Source: Succiniclasticum ruminis DSM 9236 (GTDB taxonomy: Bacteria; Bacillota; Negativicutes; Acidaminococcales; Acidaminococcaceae). Taken from it: a DNA stretch of 64,000 nucleotides. The stretch lies in contig NZ_FONL01000003.1 of the NCBI RefSeq assembly GCF_900112895.1, positions 124,001-188,000 of the forward strand. The letters are read 5' to 3'. The notes beneath the pieces were generated by a model. That model was not told the origin of the DNA, made no database searches, and worked only from the letters and a program-made list of their open reading frames with translations. Below are positions 5,846-57,412 of this stretch, piece after piece. How positions within the stretch are numbered: the first letter of the stretch is position 1; each line of letters opens with the position of its first letter. Both the position numbers and the translations under genes were made by a program.

Positions 5846-5874
5846 TTTGCAAAACAAACAATCCGTGTTATACT
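5846..5874 (+). promoter_or_regulatory. Promoter of structured RNA copy 1
   Basis: TTTGCA (5846-5851), a 17-base spacer and TATACT (5869-5874) with an upstream TG (extended -10). The predicted transcript starts at about the first RNA hairpin. Confidence 0.6.
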
Positions 5875-5879
5875 AAAGT

Positions 5880-5994
5880 GTCACAAGAGTGACGCGGTTC
5901 GCAGAAGCGAAACCGGAAACCCGTTACTAATTTTTAACGATTTGGCTATGAAGGCTTACTGTCGCAAATGCAGACAGCTTCATAGCCTTTTGTC
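5880..5994 (+). ncRNA. Candidate structured leader RNA, copy 1
   Basis: Four hairpins in order: GTCAC-AAGA-GTGAC (5880-5893); CGGTTCGC-AGAA-GCGAAACCG (5895-5915); a weak CGTTA/TAACG (5923-5940); and a strong GGCTATGAAG/CTTCATAGCC stem (5944-5987) with an inner CTGTC/GACAG, followed by a T-rich tract. A second copy lies at 43121. The first 14 bases and the outer terminator stem are the same in both. The terminator sits just before the methyltransferase gene at 6041, as in a riboswitch or attenuator. I do not recognise a known family. Confidence 0.6.
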
Positions 5995-6040
5995 TTTTGA
6001 AAGAAGCTATGATAATGATCAGGAAAGCGGGGTACATCTC

Positions 6041-6793
6041 ATGACACAAATCAGCGAAAAGAGCATCGTCCACAGGATAAATGCAAAAGAATTTATAGAA
6101 GATTACTGGACAAAACGCGCGCCGGGTTTCAAAAGCCTGCGCCGGGAAGAACTGCAAAGCGAAAAAATGCGGCAATGGCAGGAGGAAATCTGCCGTCACC
6201 TGCCGACGGAGAAACCGCTGAAAATATTGGACATCGGCTGCGGCGCCGGTTTCTTTTCCATACTGCTGGCCGCGAAAGGCTATGACGTCACCGGCATCGA
6301 CTTAACGGAATCCATGATTGAAGAAGCTGCCGCGTTAGCTGCGGAAGTGAAATCCAACGCGCGCTTTCAGGTTATGGATGCGGAAAAGTTGTCCTTTCCA
6401 GACGAAAGTTTTGACGTCGTGGTCTCCCGTAATGTGACATGGAACCTGCCTCATCCGGAAAAAGCTTACGCGGAATGGCTGCGCGTCCTGAAAACCGGTG
6501 GATTGCTTCTGAATTACGATGCGGAACACGGTAAGTATCATCACGGCGATTATGAAAAAGAAGCGGTTTATGCTCACAAGGACGTAACCAGAGAAATGGT
6601 GGAACAGTGCCACCAAATCTATCACATGCTGGACATCAGCATATTTGACCGCCCCCGCTGGGATCTGGATATATTGCGGAAACTGGGGGTAAGCGCCTGC
6701 TCTGCCGATACAACGGTAGGCCGGCGGCTGTATCCGAAAAAGGATAAGTTTTACGATCCGGCTCCGCTGTTTGGCATTGTTGCGGTAAAGTAA
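6041..6793 (+). CDS. Class I SAM-dependent methyltransferase
   Basis: Protein of 250 residues. The SAM-binding motif I is LDIGCGAG at about 63-70, followed by the acidic residue of motif II in VTGIDLT and the motif AEKLSFPDESFDVVVSRN, typical of the Methyltransf_11/25 group. It acts in the cytoplasm on an unknown small molecule. The open frame reaches back to 5942, but that part overlaps the leader terminator, so the ATG at 6041 after AGGAAAG is preferred. The leader RNA upstream is shared with the solute-binding-protein gene at 43430, which suggests a common signal. A hairpin repeat follows at 6832. Confidence 0.82.
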   Translation: MTQISEKSIVHRINAKEFIEDYWTKRAPGFKSLRREELQSEKMRQWQEEICRHLPTEKPLKILDIGCGAGFFSILLAAKGYDVTGIDLTESMIEEAAALAAEVKSNARFQVMDAEKLSFPDESFDVVVSRNVTWNLPHPEKAYAEWLRVLKTGGLLLNYDAEHGKYHHGDYEKEAVYAHKDVTREMVEQCHQIYHMLDISIFDRPRWDLDILRKLGVSACSADTTVGRRLYPKKDKFYDPAPLFGIVAVK

Positions 6794-43084: not shown

Positions 43085-43115
43085 TTTGCATAATTATTCC
43101 GACACATGTTATAAT
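43085..43115 (+). promoter_or_regulatory. Promoter of structured RNA copy 2
   Basis: TTTGCA (43085-43090) and an extended -10 TGTTATAAT (hexamer 43110-43115). The RNA's first hairpin begins six bases after the -10, the same offset as in copy 1. Confidence 0.6.
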
Positions 43116-43120
43116 GAATT

Positions 43121-43250
43121 GTCACAAGAGTGACGGGCTTCGCAAAAGCGAAGCAAAGCACTAACAGTTTTGTCCTTAACTGAATACAAATGCTAAAGCT
43201 ATGAAGGCTTACCGGTTCCGGAAGGAGCCAGCCGCTTCATAGCTTTTTTG
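43121..43250 (+). ncRNA. Candidate structured leader RNA, copy 2
   Basis: Hairpins in the same order as copy 1 at 5880: GTCAC-AAGA-GTGAC (43121-43134, identical); GCTTCGC-AAAA-GCGAAGC (43137-43154, compensatory differences from copy 1); weak CAGTT/AACTG (about 43165-43182); and AAGCTATGAAG/CTTCATAGCTT (43196-43245) followed by TTTTTG. The apical part of the terminator differs. The solute-binding lipoprotein gene begins 180 bases downstream. The paired changes in hairpin 2 support a real RNA structure. Confidence 0.62.
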
Positions 43251-43429: not shown

Positions 43430-44707
43430 ATGAAGGTGAAGAAGCTTTTATGTGTTATTATGCTGGCTGCACTGGTATTGTCCAGCTGTGCCGGGGAAAA
43501 GAAAAAAGAAGCGGCGGTGTTCAAGGTGGGCGTGCCCCACTTAATGGCTACGTACGATCACACGAAAGGGTATGACGGCTGGTCCACCACGCGTATCGGG
43601 GTAGGCGAAACCGTTTTGAAGTTCGATGCAGACGGAAAACTGGTTCCCTGGCTGGCAGACTTTGACGGGAAGGTGTTTACGGTAAAGAACGTAAAATTTA
43701 CCGACGGCAGCAGGGTGACTGCCAAAGATATCTGCGACAGCCTGACCGATTCCTGTGCAAAGAACGTCCGTGCCAGAGAAGTGATGAAGAACAGCAGCTG
43801 GAAAGTGCTGACGGACAACACGTTTGAATATGTTGGCGAGAAGTCTGTCCTTACCGATCCCGTGTTCTGCATTGCCAAAGGCGGCAACGTGTATACCGGC
43901 GGCAAGGTAATTTTCTATTCCGCCGAGAAAGCGGTGGTAGAGCGTAACGGCAGAAAATATGAATACCTTGCCATAGGTCATAATGCTACCCGGGGCATGG
44001 CTATTGAAACGGGAGATGTAGATGTTGTGTTCGATGTTGACCCGCAGTATTACAAAGGACGCGAGCATGAAGAAGTCGGCGGGGCCCGTACCATCATGAG
44101 CAGGATGAACATGGCGCCGGGCCGGCCGTTAAGCGATCCGAAGCTGCGTAAAATTCTGGCGGAGTGCATCAATCTGCAGGATATGGAAAAACCGCTGCGG
44201 GGTTATGTGGTCTGCAATCCTAACTATTCCCGCTATACAAAATCCAATCGGATTTATAATCCGGTAAAAGCAGATAAGCCGGTCACCCTGAAGATGGTGT
44301 TCTACGAAAGCCGGCCGGAATTCAAAATAATTGCGGAAGCCACCCAGCTCCAGGCCAAAAAGGCAGGCATCGACATCAAACTGCAGTCGGTGCACGTGAA
44401 CGCGCTGCGCGACGTGGAAGTGAGCGGCGATTATGACCTTGTTCTTTCGTCTACAACCAATATTCAGAGCGGTACTGTGGAGAATTATTACCGTCTGTAT
44501 TTCGACAGCAAAAGCCCGGAGAATCATACCAGATACAACAATCCTGCTTTCGACAATGCAAAAACCCTGCAGGAGATGCAGGACATCCTCGACAAAGATT
44601 ATGCGGTCATCGTGTATGGCAACCCGCTGCACAACCGGGTCAGCAAGAAAAAAATGGTAAAGCTGAACCCGCTGGACTTTTACTATGACGTGGAGGAAGT
44701 GAAATAG
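43430..44707 (+). CDS. ABC transporter solute-binding lipoprotein (nickel/peptide family 5)
   Basis: Protein of 425 residues. The lipobox VLSSC places the lipid Cys at 20. The body matches SBP family 5, close to NikA-type proteins: WSTTRIGVGETVLKFDADGK, LVPWLADFDGKVFTVKNVKF, FTDGSRVTAKDICDSL and ETGDVDVVFDVD. It probably captures a nickel chelate, a peptide or another small solute in the periplasm. No permease or ATPase gene is adjacent. It lies behind the structured RNA whose other copy precedes a methyltransferase gene, which hints at common control. GGAAGGAGAA precedes the ATG. Confidence 0.87.
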   Translation: MKVKKLLCVIMLAALVLSSCAGEKKKEAAVFKVGVPHLMATYDHTKGYDGWSTTRIGVGETVLKFDADGKLVPWLADFDGKVFTVKNVKFTDGSRVTAKDICDSLTDSCAKNVRAREVMKNSSWKVLTDNTFEYVGEKSVLTDPVFCIAKGGNVYTGGKVIFYSAEKAVVERNGRKYEYLAIGHNATRGMAIETGDVDVVFDVDPQYYKGREHEEVGGARTIMSRMNMAPGRPLSDPKLRKILAECINLQDMEKPLRGYVVCNPNYSRYTKSNRIYNPVKADKPVTLKMVFYESRPEFKIIAEATQLQAKKAGIDIKLQSVHVNALRDVEVSGDYDLVLSSTTNIQSGTVENYYRLYFDSKSPENHTRYNNPAFDNAKTLQEMQDILDKDYAVIVYGNPLHNRVSKKKMVKLNPLDFYYDVEEVK

Positions 44708-54909: not shown

Positions 54910-55734
54910 ATGAATCAGATCATTGCCACAGCGCAACAAATACTCGATTTTAAAGTTGGAAACATCAGTGTAGGCTCCGTCATCCAGGGGCTGGTCCTGC
55001 TGATCATCTTCAACCGGATCATCAGCATGATCATGGGCCCGATTATTGACAAGGTTCTGGGCCGCTTTAAACTGGAAACCACGGTACAGGGATTTGTCAA
55101 AGGCTTTATCAAGGTGATCCTGAACTTTGTGGCCCTTTGTGTGGTTGCAGACAGCATCGGTATTCCGATTGCATCCGTCCTGGCTGTTGTAGGCATGTTA
55201 GGTCTGGCAATTTCCCTGTCCGTACAGGGAGCTTTGTCCAACGTTGCCAACGGTTTCCTCATTTTAGTTACGAAACCCTTTAAGGTTGGCGATTATGTTG
55301 GCATCGCAGGCATTGAAGGTTTTGTAAAAGACGTCAGCATGCTCTGCACCAAAGTGCTTACCATTGACAACAAGCTGATCATTGTTCCCAACTCGGAAGC
55401 CATGGGCGGCAAAATCACCAACTTTTCTTCCGAGGATCTGCGCCGGGTAGACATTGAAACGAAAGCCGGCTATGCCAATAAGTTTGAAGATGTTTATGCT
55501 GCAGTGCTGCAAGCCGTGAAAGATACGCCCACCGCGTTACAGGATCCGGCGCCTTTCGTGCGGGTTTCCGGTTACACTGACTATGCGGTAGTGTACACGA
55601 TCCGTGTATGGACCAAATCCGCTAACTATTGGGACTGCTATTTCGACCTGATGCAGAAGGTTGGGGAATTCAAAGACAAGAACGGTATTGTCGGCGGCGT
55701 TCCTTCTATGAAAGTATTGGGTGAGGACAAATAA
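54910..55734 (+). CDS. MscS-family mechanosensitive channel
   Basis: Protein of 274 residues, close to the E. coli MscS length. About three membrane helices precede the pore helix (GMLGLAISLSVQGALSNVAN), then the family's beta domain with NGFLILVTKPFKVGDYVGIA, EGFVKDVSMLCTKVLT and IIVPNSEAMGGKITNFS. It opens under membrane tension to release solutes in osmotic downshock. TTAGGAGGT precedes the ATG. It has its own extended -10 promoter at 54850. A bidirectional terminator separates it from panF. Confidence 0.93.
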   Translation: MNQIIATAQQILDFKVGNISVGSVIQGLVLLIIFNRIISMIMGPIIDKVLGRFKLETTVQGFVKGFIKVILNFVALCVVADSIGIPIASVLAVVGMLGLAISLSVQGALSNVANGFLILVTKPFKVGDYVGIAGIEGFVKDVSMLCTKVLTIDNKLIIVPNSEAMGGKITNFSSEDLRRVDIETKAGYANKFEDVYAAVLQAVKDTPTALQDPAPFVRVSGYTDYAVVYTIRVWTKSANYWDCYFDLMQKVGEFKDKNGIVGGVPSMKVLGEDK

Positions 55735-55831
55735 CGCCGTTTACACGTCCGCTGTTGTTTAATTATGACAGGAAAGTGCATAGCAGGCACTCCCGGTGTT
55801 TTTGCTTCAGCGCTTCTCCGTCGCAACTTGT

Positions 55832-55875
55832 AAAAAATAACCGGTATCACAGTGAAATGTGATACCGGTTTTACT
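55832..55875. terminator. Bidirectional intrinsic terminator
   Basis: AACCGGTATCAC (55839-55850) pairs perfectly with GTGATACCGGTT (55859-55870). T-rich sequence flanks it on both strands, fitting the convergent MscS and panF genes. Confidence 0.9.
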
Positions 55876-55912
55876 ATTGTGCGAGTCTTTTTTATTGCAG
55901 GCTCATTGGTTT

Positions 55913-57412
55913 CTAGTCTTCGTACTTATCCGGGAAGAACAACTTCAGGGTGTCCATGTCGGGCATCTTGCCTAAGGCGTTGCCGATAAAGAAGAAGACC
56001 AGCGAAGTGGTGATACCGATGGTGATCTGGTGCAGGGACATTACTTTGAAGCCCAGGGCCATGGTGATGCAGTAGGCTGCCACGCCGCCGGCCATGGCGA
56101 ATATGGCGCCGGTGCTGTTGGCTTTGTGCCAGAACAGGCCGAAGATCATCACCCAGAAGAACGCGGTTTCCAGTCCGCCGAAGGCGAACATGTTGATCTT
56201 CCAGATTACAGACGGGGGCGCGATGGAAATCAGGTAGATTCCAAAGCCCAGCAGGATGGTGAAGATCATGCTTAACCGTTTGACGCCGTCGTTGCTCAGG
56301 GAATTCCCGCTCTTTTCCAAATGGCGCATGTACACGTCTTTGATGATGGAGGAAGAAGAGGTGAGCAGCAGGGAGGAAACAGTGGAAATGGTGGCCGCGA
56401 TAGGTCCAATGATGACAACGCCGGCCCAGAAGGGGCTCATGACGCTGATGATGGTGCGGGGCATGATGTTGTCCACGCTGTTTCCGTAAGCGGCCAAATC
56501 AGGATTGGTGAGTACGCCTTTGCACAGTACGCCGACCCAGGTAGCGATGATGGTTACCACACCGATTACGATGGTACCGATGATGATGGCATTACGCAGG
56601 GCTTTGGTGTCTTTATAGCTGATGCTGCGGACTACAGACTGGGGGAGCGCCAGGGTGCAGACGCCTACCAGCAGCCACTGGCTGATGTACAGGGAAACCG
56701 GCATCTTGCCACGGGAGAGAGGTTCCAGCATGGCCGGGTCGTTTGCCCGGAAGTGGGCCATGATGGCACTGTAACCTCCGGCTTTGTCCAGCAGGCAGTA
56801 GAACAGGATGCCCATGCCGATCATCATGGCGATGGCGCAGATGGCGTCGGTGATGGCTACGCCTTTGAACCCGCCGATGGTGGTGTAGATGACCACGATG
56901 ATGCCGAACATGGTGAGGCCGGTCATGTAGGAATAGCCGGTAACTGCTTCAAACAGTTTGGCCGCGCCAACGAACTGGGCGACCATGGTGGCGCAGAAGA
57001 AAGCGACGATGAAGATAGCTGCCATATTGGCCAGTGCGTCGGATTTGTACCGGGCGCGGATGATATCAATGACGGTGACCGCATCAATTTCACGGGCAAT
57101 CAGGGATATTTTCTTGCCGAAAACACCCATGACAAGGAAGATGACTACCATCTGTACGATGGCCATGTACAGCCAGCCGTAACCGATCTGCCAGGCCACG
57201 CCGGGCCCGCCGACGAAAGTGGAAACGCTGGAGTAGGTGGCAACCGTGGTCATAGCCAGGACAAAGCCGCCTAAGGAACGTCCACCGATGAAGTAGTCTT
57301 TCACAAAGTTGGAAGAACGGGCTTCACTGGACTGCTGCTGTACCCAGTAGCTGATGTAAAGCAACGCGGCCAGGAATAAAAGAGCGGGAGCCAGATTCAG
57401 TAAATTTTCCAT
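55913..57412 (-). CDS. panF: Sodium/pantothenate symporter
   Basis: Protein of 499 residues, thirteen membrane helices of the sodium:solute symporter family. Hallmarks of PanF: DYFIGGRSLGGFVLAMT, SSVSTFVGGPGVAWQIGYGW, and ISVMSPFWAGVVIIGPIAAT. It imports pantothenate (vitamin B5) with Na+ for CoA synthesis. Its ATG overlaps the stop codon of the yhdT-like gene by one base (TAATG), so the two are translationally coupled, the same order as yhdT-panF in E. coli. The attenuator-like leader before yhdT probably controls both. Confidence 0.92.
   Translation of the reverse strand: MENLLNLAPALLFLAALLYISYWVQQQSSEARSSNFVKDYFIGGRSLGGFVLAMTTVATYSSVSTFVGGPGVAWQIGYGWLYMAIVQMVVIFLVMGVFGKKISLIAREIDAVTVIDIIRARYKSDALANMAAIFIVAFFCATMVAQFVGAAKLFEAVTGYSYMTGLTMFGIIVVIYTTIGGFKGVAITDAICAIAMMIGMGILFYCLLDKAGGYSAIMAHFRANDPAMLEPLSRGKMPVSLYISQWLLVGVCTLALPQSVVRSISYKDTKALRNAIIIGTIVIGVVTIIATWVGVLCKGVLTNPDLAAYGNSVDNIMPRTIISVMSPFWAGVVIIGPIAATISTVSSLLLTSSSSIIKDVYMRHLEKSGNSLSNDGVKRLSMIFTILLGFGIYLISIAPPSVIWKINMFAFGGLETAFFWVMIFGLFWHKANSTGAIFAMAGGVAAYCITMALGFKVMSLHQITIGITTSLVFFFIGNALGKMPDMDTLKLFFPDKYED

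Follow-up and report, generated by a model that had tools for sequence, protein, structure and literature searches.

Two leader copies ahead of a methyltransferase and a NikA-like gene

The window, by which we mean the whole 64,000-nt stretch of Succiniclasticum ruminis DSM 9236 analyzed here, contains two copies of a structured leader, one upstream of a gene for a class I methyltransferase and the other upstream of a gene for a NikA-like substrate-binding lipoprotein (Table 1). Both copies lie where a first-pass annotation of the sequence had placed them, with an identical first hairpin (HP1), and the extended -10 that it had described is present in each, accompanied in copy 2 by a weak -35 only. 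Transcription presumably starts at or beside HP1, and the -10 and its spacing to HP1 are kept in 17 of the 18 leaders identified in the genus Succiniclasticum. Two further elements of the initial description needed correction. The terminator had been said to end just before a gene, which fits copy 1 (about 54 nt from terminator end to gene start) but not copy 2 (about 187 nt). In addition, the weak third hairpin that had been drawn in the spacer is not conserved, and the length of the spacer varies strongly.

Table 1. Parts of the two leader copies and their target genes, in window coordinates
Feature	Coordinates	Strand	Description
Promoter, copy 1	5846..5874	+	-35 TTTGCA, 17-nt spacing, TG ahead of -10 TATACT
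HP1, copy 1	5880..5893	+	GTCAC-AAGA-GTGAC; predicted transcript 5′ end; cross-genus covariation
HP2, copy 1	5895..5915	+	CGGTTCGC-AGAA-GCGAAaCCG; needs a bulged A
HP3, copy 1	5944..5956	+	GGCU-AUGAA-GGCU; candidate antiterminator (putative role), overlaps terminator 5′ arm
Intrinsic terminator, copy 1	5944..5998 (5944-5987 without tail)	+	GGCTATGAAG...CTTCATAGCC + T-rich tail
Methyltransferase, target of copy 1	6041..6793 (ATG at 6041)	+	class I SAM-dependent, Methyltransf_11; nik-linked in other genera
Extended -10, copy 2	43107..43115	+	TG-N-TATAAT; -35 weak, absent from promoter-scan output
HP1, copy 2	43121..43134	+	GTCAC-AAGA-GTGAC
HP2, copy 2	43137..43154	+	GCTTCGC-AAAA-GCGAAGC
HP3, copy 2	43196..43210	+	AAGCU-AUGAA-GGCUU; candidate antiterminator (putative role)
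Intrinsic terminator, copy 2	43198..43249 (43198-43243 without tail)	+	GCTATGAAG...CTTCATAGC + TTTTTT
NikA-like substrate-binding lipoprotein, target of copy 2	43430..44707	+	SBP_bac_5

The two copies are unusual within the host genome, both in sequence and in predicted stability. Across all 2.54 Mb of the genome, the HP1 16-mer TGTCACAAGAGTGACG has exactly two occurrences, and tolerating one mismatch adds none; the terminator pattern likewise occurs twice. A descriptor of two tandem Y-NNRA-R hairpins (stems of at least 5, a linker of at most 8, and a terminator within 260 nt) matched just the two window sites in 928 kb of the host genome on both strands, and the same search with six control loop classes gave one terminator-bearing match in total. 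The leaders fold with z-scores of -4.9 (copy 1) and -5.2 (copy 2) relative to dinucleotide shuffles, with none of 200 shuffles equally stable. Mobile repeats were ruled out as an explanation, given that the copies are few, constant in orientation, and always ahead of the same gene types.

As the first-pass annotation had suspected, the element matches no family in Rfam 15: no family reached its gathering score, and permissive scans returned only sub-threshold chance or terminator matches. Among these, mir-7918 (RF04001) scored 42.9 bits, below its gathering score of 80, at positions 5940-5992, which cover the terminator hairpin of copy 1 only. The consensus of this family, a stem GGCUCUGAAA...UUUCAGAGCC followed by UUUUG, resembles a bacterial intrinsic terminator, and the 'miRNA' family may therefore originate in bacterial contamination. 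A search of the accessible literature found no description of such a leader, an absence that is no proof of novelty, and nickel is not mentioned in the main text of two large motif-discovery papers.

Covariation and distribution of the paired hairpins

Pattern and covariance-model searches identified 18 leaders in 9 of 14 Succiniclasticum genomes, all with the same order of promoter, HP1, HP2, variable spacer, and terminator. The covariance model (R1), built from 13 Succiniclasticum copies, is dominated by sequence; its search of 381 genomes of the class returned no genus other than Succiniclasticum, and covariation on its own alignment was not significant. The covariance-model search of Negativicutes that had been suggested at the outset therefore stopped at one genus, and the wider spread emerged from reading the leaders of orthologous operons. 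This gave five leaders with the same architecture and different stems: one in a tenth Succiniclasticum genome (G048, locus L144) and four (L139, L140, L141, and L142) in three further genera of Acidaminococcaceae. Examples of such re-paired HP1 and HP2 combinations are GGCTGC-TGAA-GCAGCC with GGCAGT-TGAA-GCTGCC, ACTGC-AAGA-GCAGT with GCCGC-AGAA-GCGGC, GGTTGC-AGGA-GCAACC with GCTGC-CGGA-GCAGC, and CAGATAGC-TGAA-GCTGTCTG with CTGTAC-AGAA-GTACAG. Except for G048, the re-paired leaders share the terminator arm GCYATGAAGGCT, and in the other genera of the family this terminator pattern always lies ahead of the methyltransferase or nik-type genes; scattered matches to the pattern elsewhere in the class are unlike the terminators of the HP1-HP2 leader. 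When 84,980 species genomes were scanned for the pattern, the only matches were rumen and gut records labelled Succiniclasticum, Acidaminococcaceae, or Selenomonadales, the matching contigs being from uncultured Succiniclasticum and Acidaminococcaceae, and a scan of viral contigs gave zero matches. Two matches (L003 and L035) were dismissed as chance. Among the genomes compared, which are mostly metagenome assemblies, the leader is so far confined to one family of gut and rumen bacteria, the Acidaminococcaceae.

To the 18 Succiniclasticum leaders we added the five re-paired ones and measured covariation on the resulting 23 (19 distinct). Standard pairs are formed at 106 of 114 positions in HP1 and 110 of 114 in HP2, and shuffled 3′ arms pair at 78% and 76%, respectively, with 0 of 10,000 shuffles reaching the real values. 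When each lineage was represented by one sequence (n=8), the permutation fractions were 1.5e-4 for HP1 and 1e-4 for HP2. Pair 2 of HP1, for instance, is either A-U or G-C, and pair 3 is C-G, U-A, or A-U. The loops follow an NNRA pattern in all HP1 forms and in 18 of 19 HP2 forms, closed by C-G in all HP1 forms and in 17 of 19 HP2 forms, with variable first and second positions (AAGA, AGAA, TGAA, CAAA, CGGA, and AACA) and a loop A that is kept. The fold is kept across several genera despite near-complete replacement of its sequence, so covarying homologues do exist in related genomes, and the compensatory changes in HP2, for which the two window copies alone are weak evidence (copy 1 has a bulged A), are proven by the other genera. 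Downstream of HP2, the NikA-type leaders L032, L010, and L007 carry an additional hairpin whose loop resembles GGGAAYG or AGGAATG (e.g. TTTTCGGGAATGAAAA).

Because HP1 and HP2 covary and the NNRA loops persist, action of the element as RNA rather than as a DNA operator is strongly favoured. We give very little credence to the alternative that HP1 is the operator of a repressor, a palindrome GTCAC-N4-GTGAC overlapping +1. The palindrome is indeed perfect, its spacing from the -10 is fixed, and it is invariant in most Succiniclasticum copies; however, the other genera and G048 carry unrelated re-paired stems, yet keep an asymmetric purine-rich loop and HP2, and an operator would need neither HP2 nor a terminator.

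The terminator and an alternative hairpin in its 5′ arm

The terminator is the second conserved part of the leader. Its lower stem, GCUAUGAAG/CUUCAUAGC, is nearly invariant, and its upper stem is re-paired freely. A feature that the first-pass annotation had missed is that the conserved 5′ arm, GCYAUGAARGCU, folds on itself into a hairpin (HP3, loop AUGAA) that is mutually exclusive with the terminator and can arise in the nascent transcript while the 3′ arm is still missing. Every leader can form HP3 with at least 4 pairs (in L012, assigned by eye, as AAGCU-AUGAA-GGCUU), compared with 7 of 223 background AUGAA sites. A 5′ arm that had to take part in two structures would be expected to show just this pattern, an invariant lower stem below a free upper stem. 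The sequence variants in the arm are of several kinds: alternation of C and U at position 3 fits HP3 and terminator alike, a change of G9 to A in L031 and L033 turns the U.G of HP3 into U-A at the cost of one terminator pair, and G048 has replaced the entire HP3 stem with a re-paired one (GTGTGTC-AGGAA-GGCGTAC). Covariation inside HP3 alone was not significant by shuffling (fraction 0.098, from 6 distinct forms of which one is the mis-assigned L012 site). HP3 is also weak (about -2.4 to -5.2 kcal/mol) and does not dominate among the nascent folds of every leader, its probability being about 0.03 in L007 and 0.2-0.3 in L141 and L011. It would therefore need a bound factor to stabilize it, as would befit a regulated antiterminator.

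We also considered other roles for this part of the leader. A leader peptide starting at AUG-AAG-GCU in the terminator arm was rejected: there is no Shine-Dalgarno sequence, and the frames end at no fixed point, after 3-20 codons (MKA*, MKAD*, and MKAC*, by eye). The frame of copy 1 is open through the methyltransferase (5948-6793), also lacks a Shine-Dalgarno sequence, and is probably fortuitous. No pairing of the spacer with the terminator arm that could act as antiterminator is conserved among the leaders. An improbable alternative is that the leader merely combines a structured 5′ end, which protects the mRNA or belongs to a small RNA of its own, with an ordinary terminator, expression of the gene resulting from basal, unregulated read-through. 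That HP1 begins the predicted transcript, with constant spacing to the -10, would suit such an arrangement, as would the promoter and terminator that bound a predicted transcript of 115-270 nt. A lower terminator stem of invariant sequence across genera would be needless under it, however, and every copy lies immediately before, and on the strand of, members of one functional gene set.

The distance between the parts is less constant than the parts themselves, as the terminator arm begins 66-210 nt into the leader. This variability would be explained by a processive antitermination element, a put-like or LoaP-type hairpin that modifies RNA polymerase directly. The put RNA of phage HK022 is a two-hairpin antitermination element, and the leader likewise has two adjacent hairpins right after the promoter, a variable spacer, and a terminator downstream. 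Even so, we regard this explanation as highly improbable: the terminator would serve no purpose behind a constitutive put-like element, the sequence is not conserved across genera, and each tested element-bearing genome has a single NusG gene, leaving no specialized paralogue of the LoaP type.

Metal-transport genes and a proposed transcription attenuator

In Succiniclasticum (L036-L051), the leaders precede a gene for a SAM-dependent methyltransferase, a gene for a NikA-like protein, a nikBC-A-DE operon, or genes for small membrane proteins with a second methyltransferase gene after them. Family scans assigned the methyltransferase to Methyltransf_11, the NikA-like protein to SBP_bac_5 with weak similarity to NikA, and NikB, above the cut-off, to the NCBIfam nickel permease Opp2B. 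The association of leader and genes is close: of 59 family genomes, 8 encode the NikA-like protein of copy 2 and each of these 8 has the element, and the leader is present in 13 of 13 family genomes with a methyltransferase at least 50% identical. The descriptor found no leader at 21 loci that lie in other families or encode distant methyltransferases. Far outside the family, the methyltransferase is linked to nik genes, co-directional or divergent, in many of the loci examined, which suggests that the common theme of the targets is an uptake module of the Nik type, for nickel/cobalt or a metal chelate, the metal being taken from the family names. The methyltransferase that had been put forward as the target holds for copy 1; the theme shared by the targets is the Nik-type (nickel/cobalt) ABC transporter and not the methyltransferase alone.

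Three gene clusters illustrate this neighbourhood. G052 has, between an MscS gene and a sodium symporter gene, a nikBC-A-DE operon that carries an element copy of its own (L051:5664-12006); the corresponding site in the window is empty (54910-57412). At L049:231-6742, the element, a NikA-like gene, and the methyltransferase form one cluster beside genes, named by eye, for a heavy-metal P-type ATPase and a CbiK-like cobalt/nickel chelatase. In another family, at L143:265-13076, the methyltransferase and a NikA-like protein are encoded amid lookalikes of TonB, ExbB/ExbD, outer-membrane receptors, and FecCD-type permeases, suggesting uptake of a metal chelate.

NikR, searched for by its NikR_C domain, is absent from 14 of 14 Succiniclasticum genomes, with positive controls, which leaves the nik-type targets without their customary nickel regulator. 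A CTATGA...TCATAG pattern in the terminator arms is reminiscent of NikR half-sites, and nik-type genes are what NikR regulates. The half-site spacing of a NikR operator is 16, whereas it is about 28-32 here, and, with NikR absent from these 14 genomes, the reading of the arms as its operator was rejected.

All 23 leaders, 18 from Succiniclasticum and five re-paired, have a promoter, a leader, and an intrinsic terminator before the gene and on the same strand. The reading that we prefer, with moderate confidence, is that the element is a cis-acting transcription attenuator of operons for Nik-type (nickel/cobalt or metal-chelate) transporters and methyltransferases, in which HP1 and HP2 receive the signal and HP3 antiterminates. 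Transcription would start at or next to HP1, and the neighbouring hairpins HP1 and HP2, each with a C-NNRA-G tetraloop, would fold at once as the signal-receiving site. Downstream, GCYAUGAARGCU could form HP3 or else join the terminator as its 5′ arm. The terminator, being far more stable, would prevail by default and keep the gene silent; in the presence of the signal, a factor bound to the hairpins would keep HP3 closed and the terminator blocked, thereby allowing transcription of the gene. The computed results are the structure and its covariation, the terminator, its overlap with HP3, and the association with the genes; regulated termination, the antiterminator role of HP3, and metal status as the signal are what we infer, with nickel/cobalt or a metal chelate as candidates, acting through an RNA-binding factor or by direct sensing. 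Counting against this reading are the weakness of HP3, the variable distance between HP2 and the terminator, which makes direct coupling of both parts doubtful, and the absence of any regulator gene linked to the element.

The first-pass annotation had left open whether the leader regulator was a riboswitch or an attenuator. Its attenuator type agrees with the placement on the same strand before one gene set; for a riboswitch, few unpaired bases are conserved, and an RNA-binding protein could equally be the sensor. A small-ligand riboswitch would combine HP1 and HP2 into a two-hairpin aptamer in the manner of guanidine-II; its loops would come together around a ligand, be it a metal, a metal chelate, or a methyltransferase-pathway product, and the terminator would serve as expression platform. 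We consider this unlikely, while giving it real weight: the two hairpins at the 5′ end are similar and adjacent, with C-G closing pairs and a conserved loop A, the metal-transport targets are coherent in several genera, and no regulator gene is linked to the element. However, loop positions 1 and 2 are free to vary, which leaves few fixed bases for a specific pocket, and the distance from aptamer to terminator is variable, with no base-paired link visible. The guanidine-II (mini-ykkC) riboswitch shares the tandem similar hairpins and short conserved loops closed by C-G, but its ACGR loops are absent here, the genes are those of metal transport and methyltransferases, and no Rfam match supports the assignment. 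The NiCo (czcD) riboswitch has a similar nickel/cobalt-related gene context, but folds as a four-way junction in place of two separate hairpins; there is no Rfam match to it, and the targets here are of the uptake type and not efflux genes. Returning to the attenuator, a trans-acting RNA-binding protein is slightly favoured over a small ligand as the sensing factor, because recognition of the loop shape by a protein fits somewhat better with loops that conserve few bases and stems that vary freely.

A close counterpart among protein-responsive leaders is the dual-hexaloop antiterminator bound by ANTAR proteins (EutV/NasR/AmiR), which has two small hairpins with conserved loop residues in a leader, one of which overlaps the 5′ arm of the terminator and excludes it. 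In ANTAR target RNAs, each of the two hairpins carries a hexanucleotide loop with A1 and G4 (PMC3369931), and Met172 of EutV has been proposed to exclude tetraloops (PMC8934654). The loops here, in contrast, are NNRA tetraloops and an AUGAA/AGGAA pentaloop without the A1/G4 signature, the paired hairpins sit by the 5′ end, well away from the terminator, and it is the third hairpin (HP3), not the second, that overlaps the terminator arm. Nor does the presence of ANTAR genes track the element, as they occur in 14 of 14 genomes of the genus, in four of which no leader was found. A bolder proposal, possible but rather doubtful, is that the leader belongs to a new regulatory RNA class, in which tandem C-NNRA-G hairpins detect either nickel/cobalt status or a methylated metal chelate and a third hairpin is switched against a terminator, and which replaces NikR in Acidaminococcaceae.

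In summary, the leader is a previously uncatalogued, probable cis-regulatory RNA with strong covariation. Its discovery also illustrates that sequence-heavy RNA models can mask the spread of a structured RNA, since the first model saw one genus and gene context added three. The small regulon ties an uncharacterized methyltransferase family to Nik-type transporters across Negativicutes. If confirmed, it would offer a handle on the products of transporter-associated methyltransferases and would represent control of nickel/cobalt without NikR in rumen bacteria that convert succinate to propionate.
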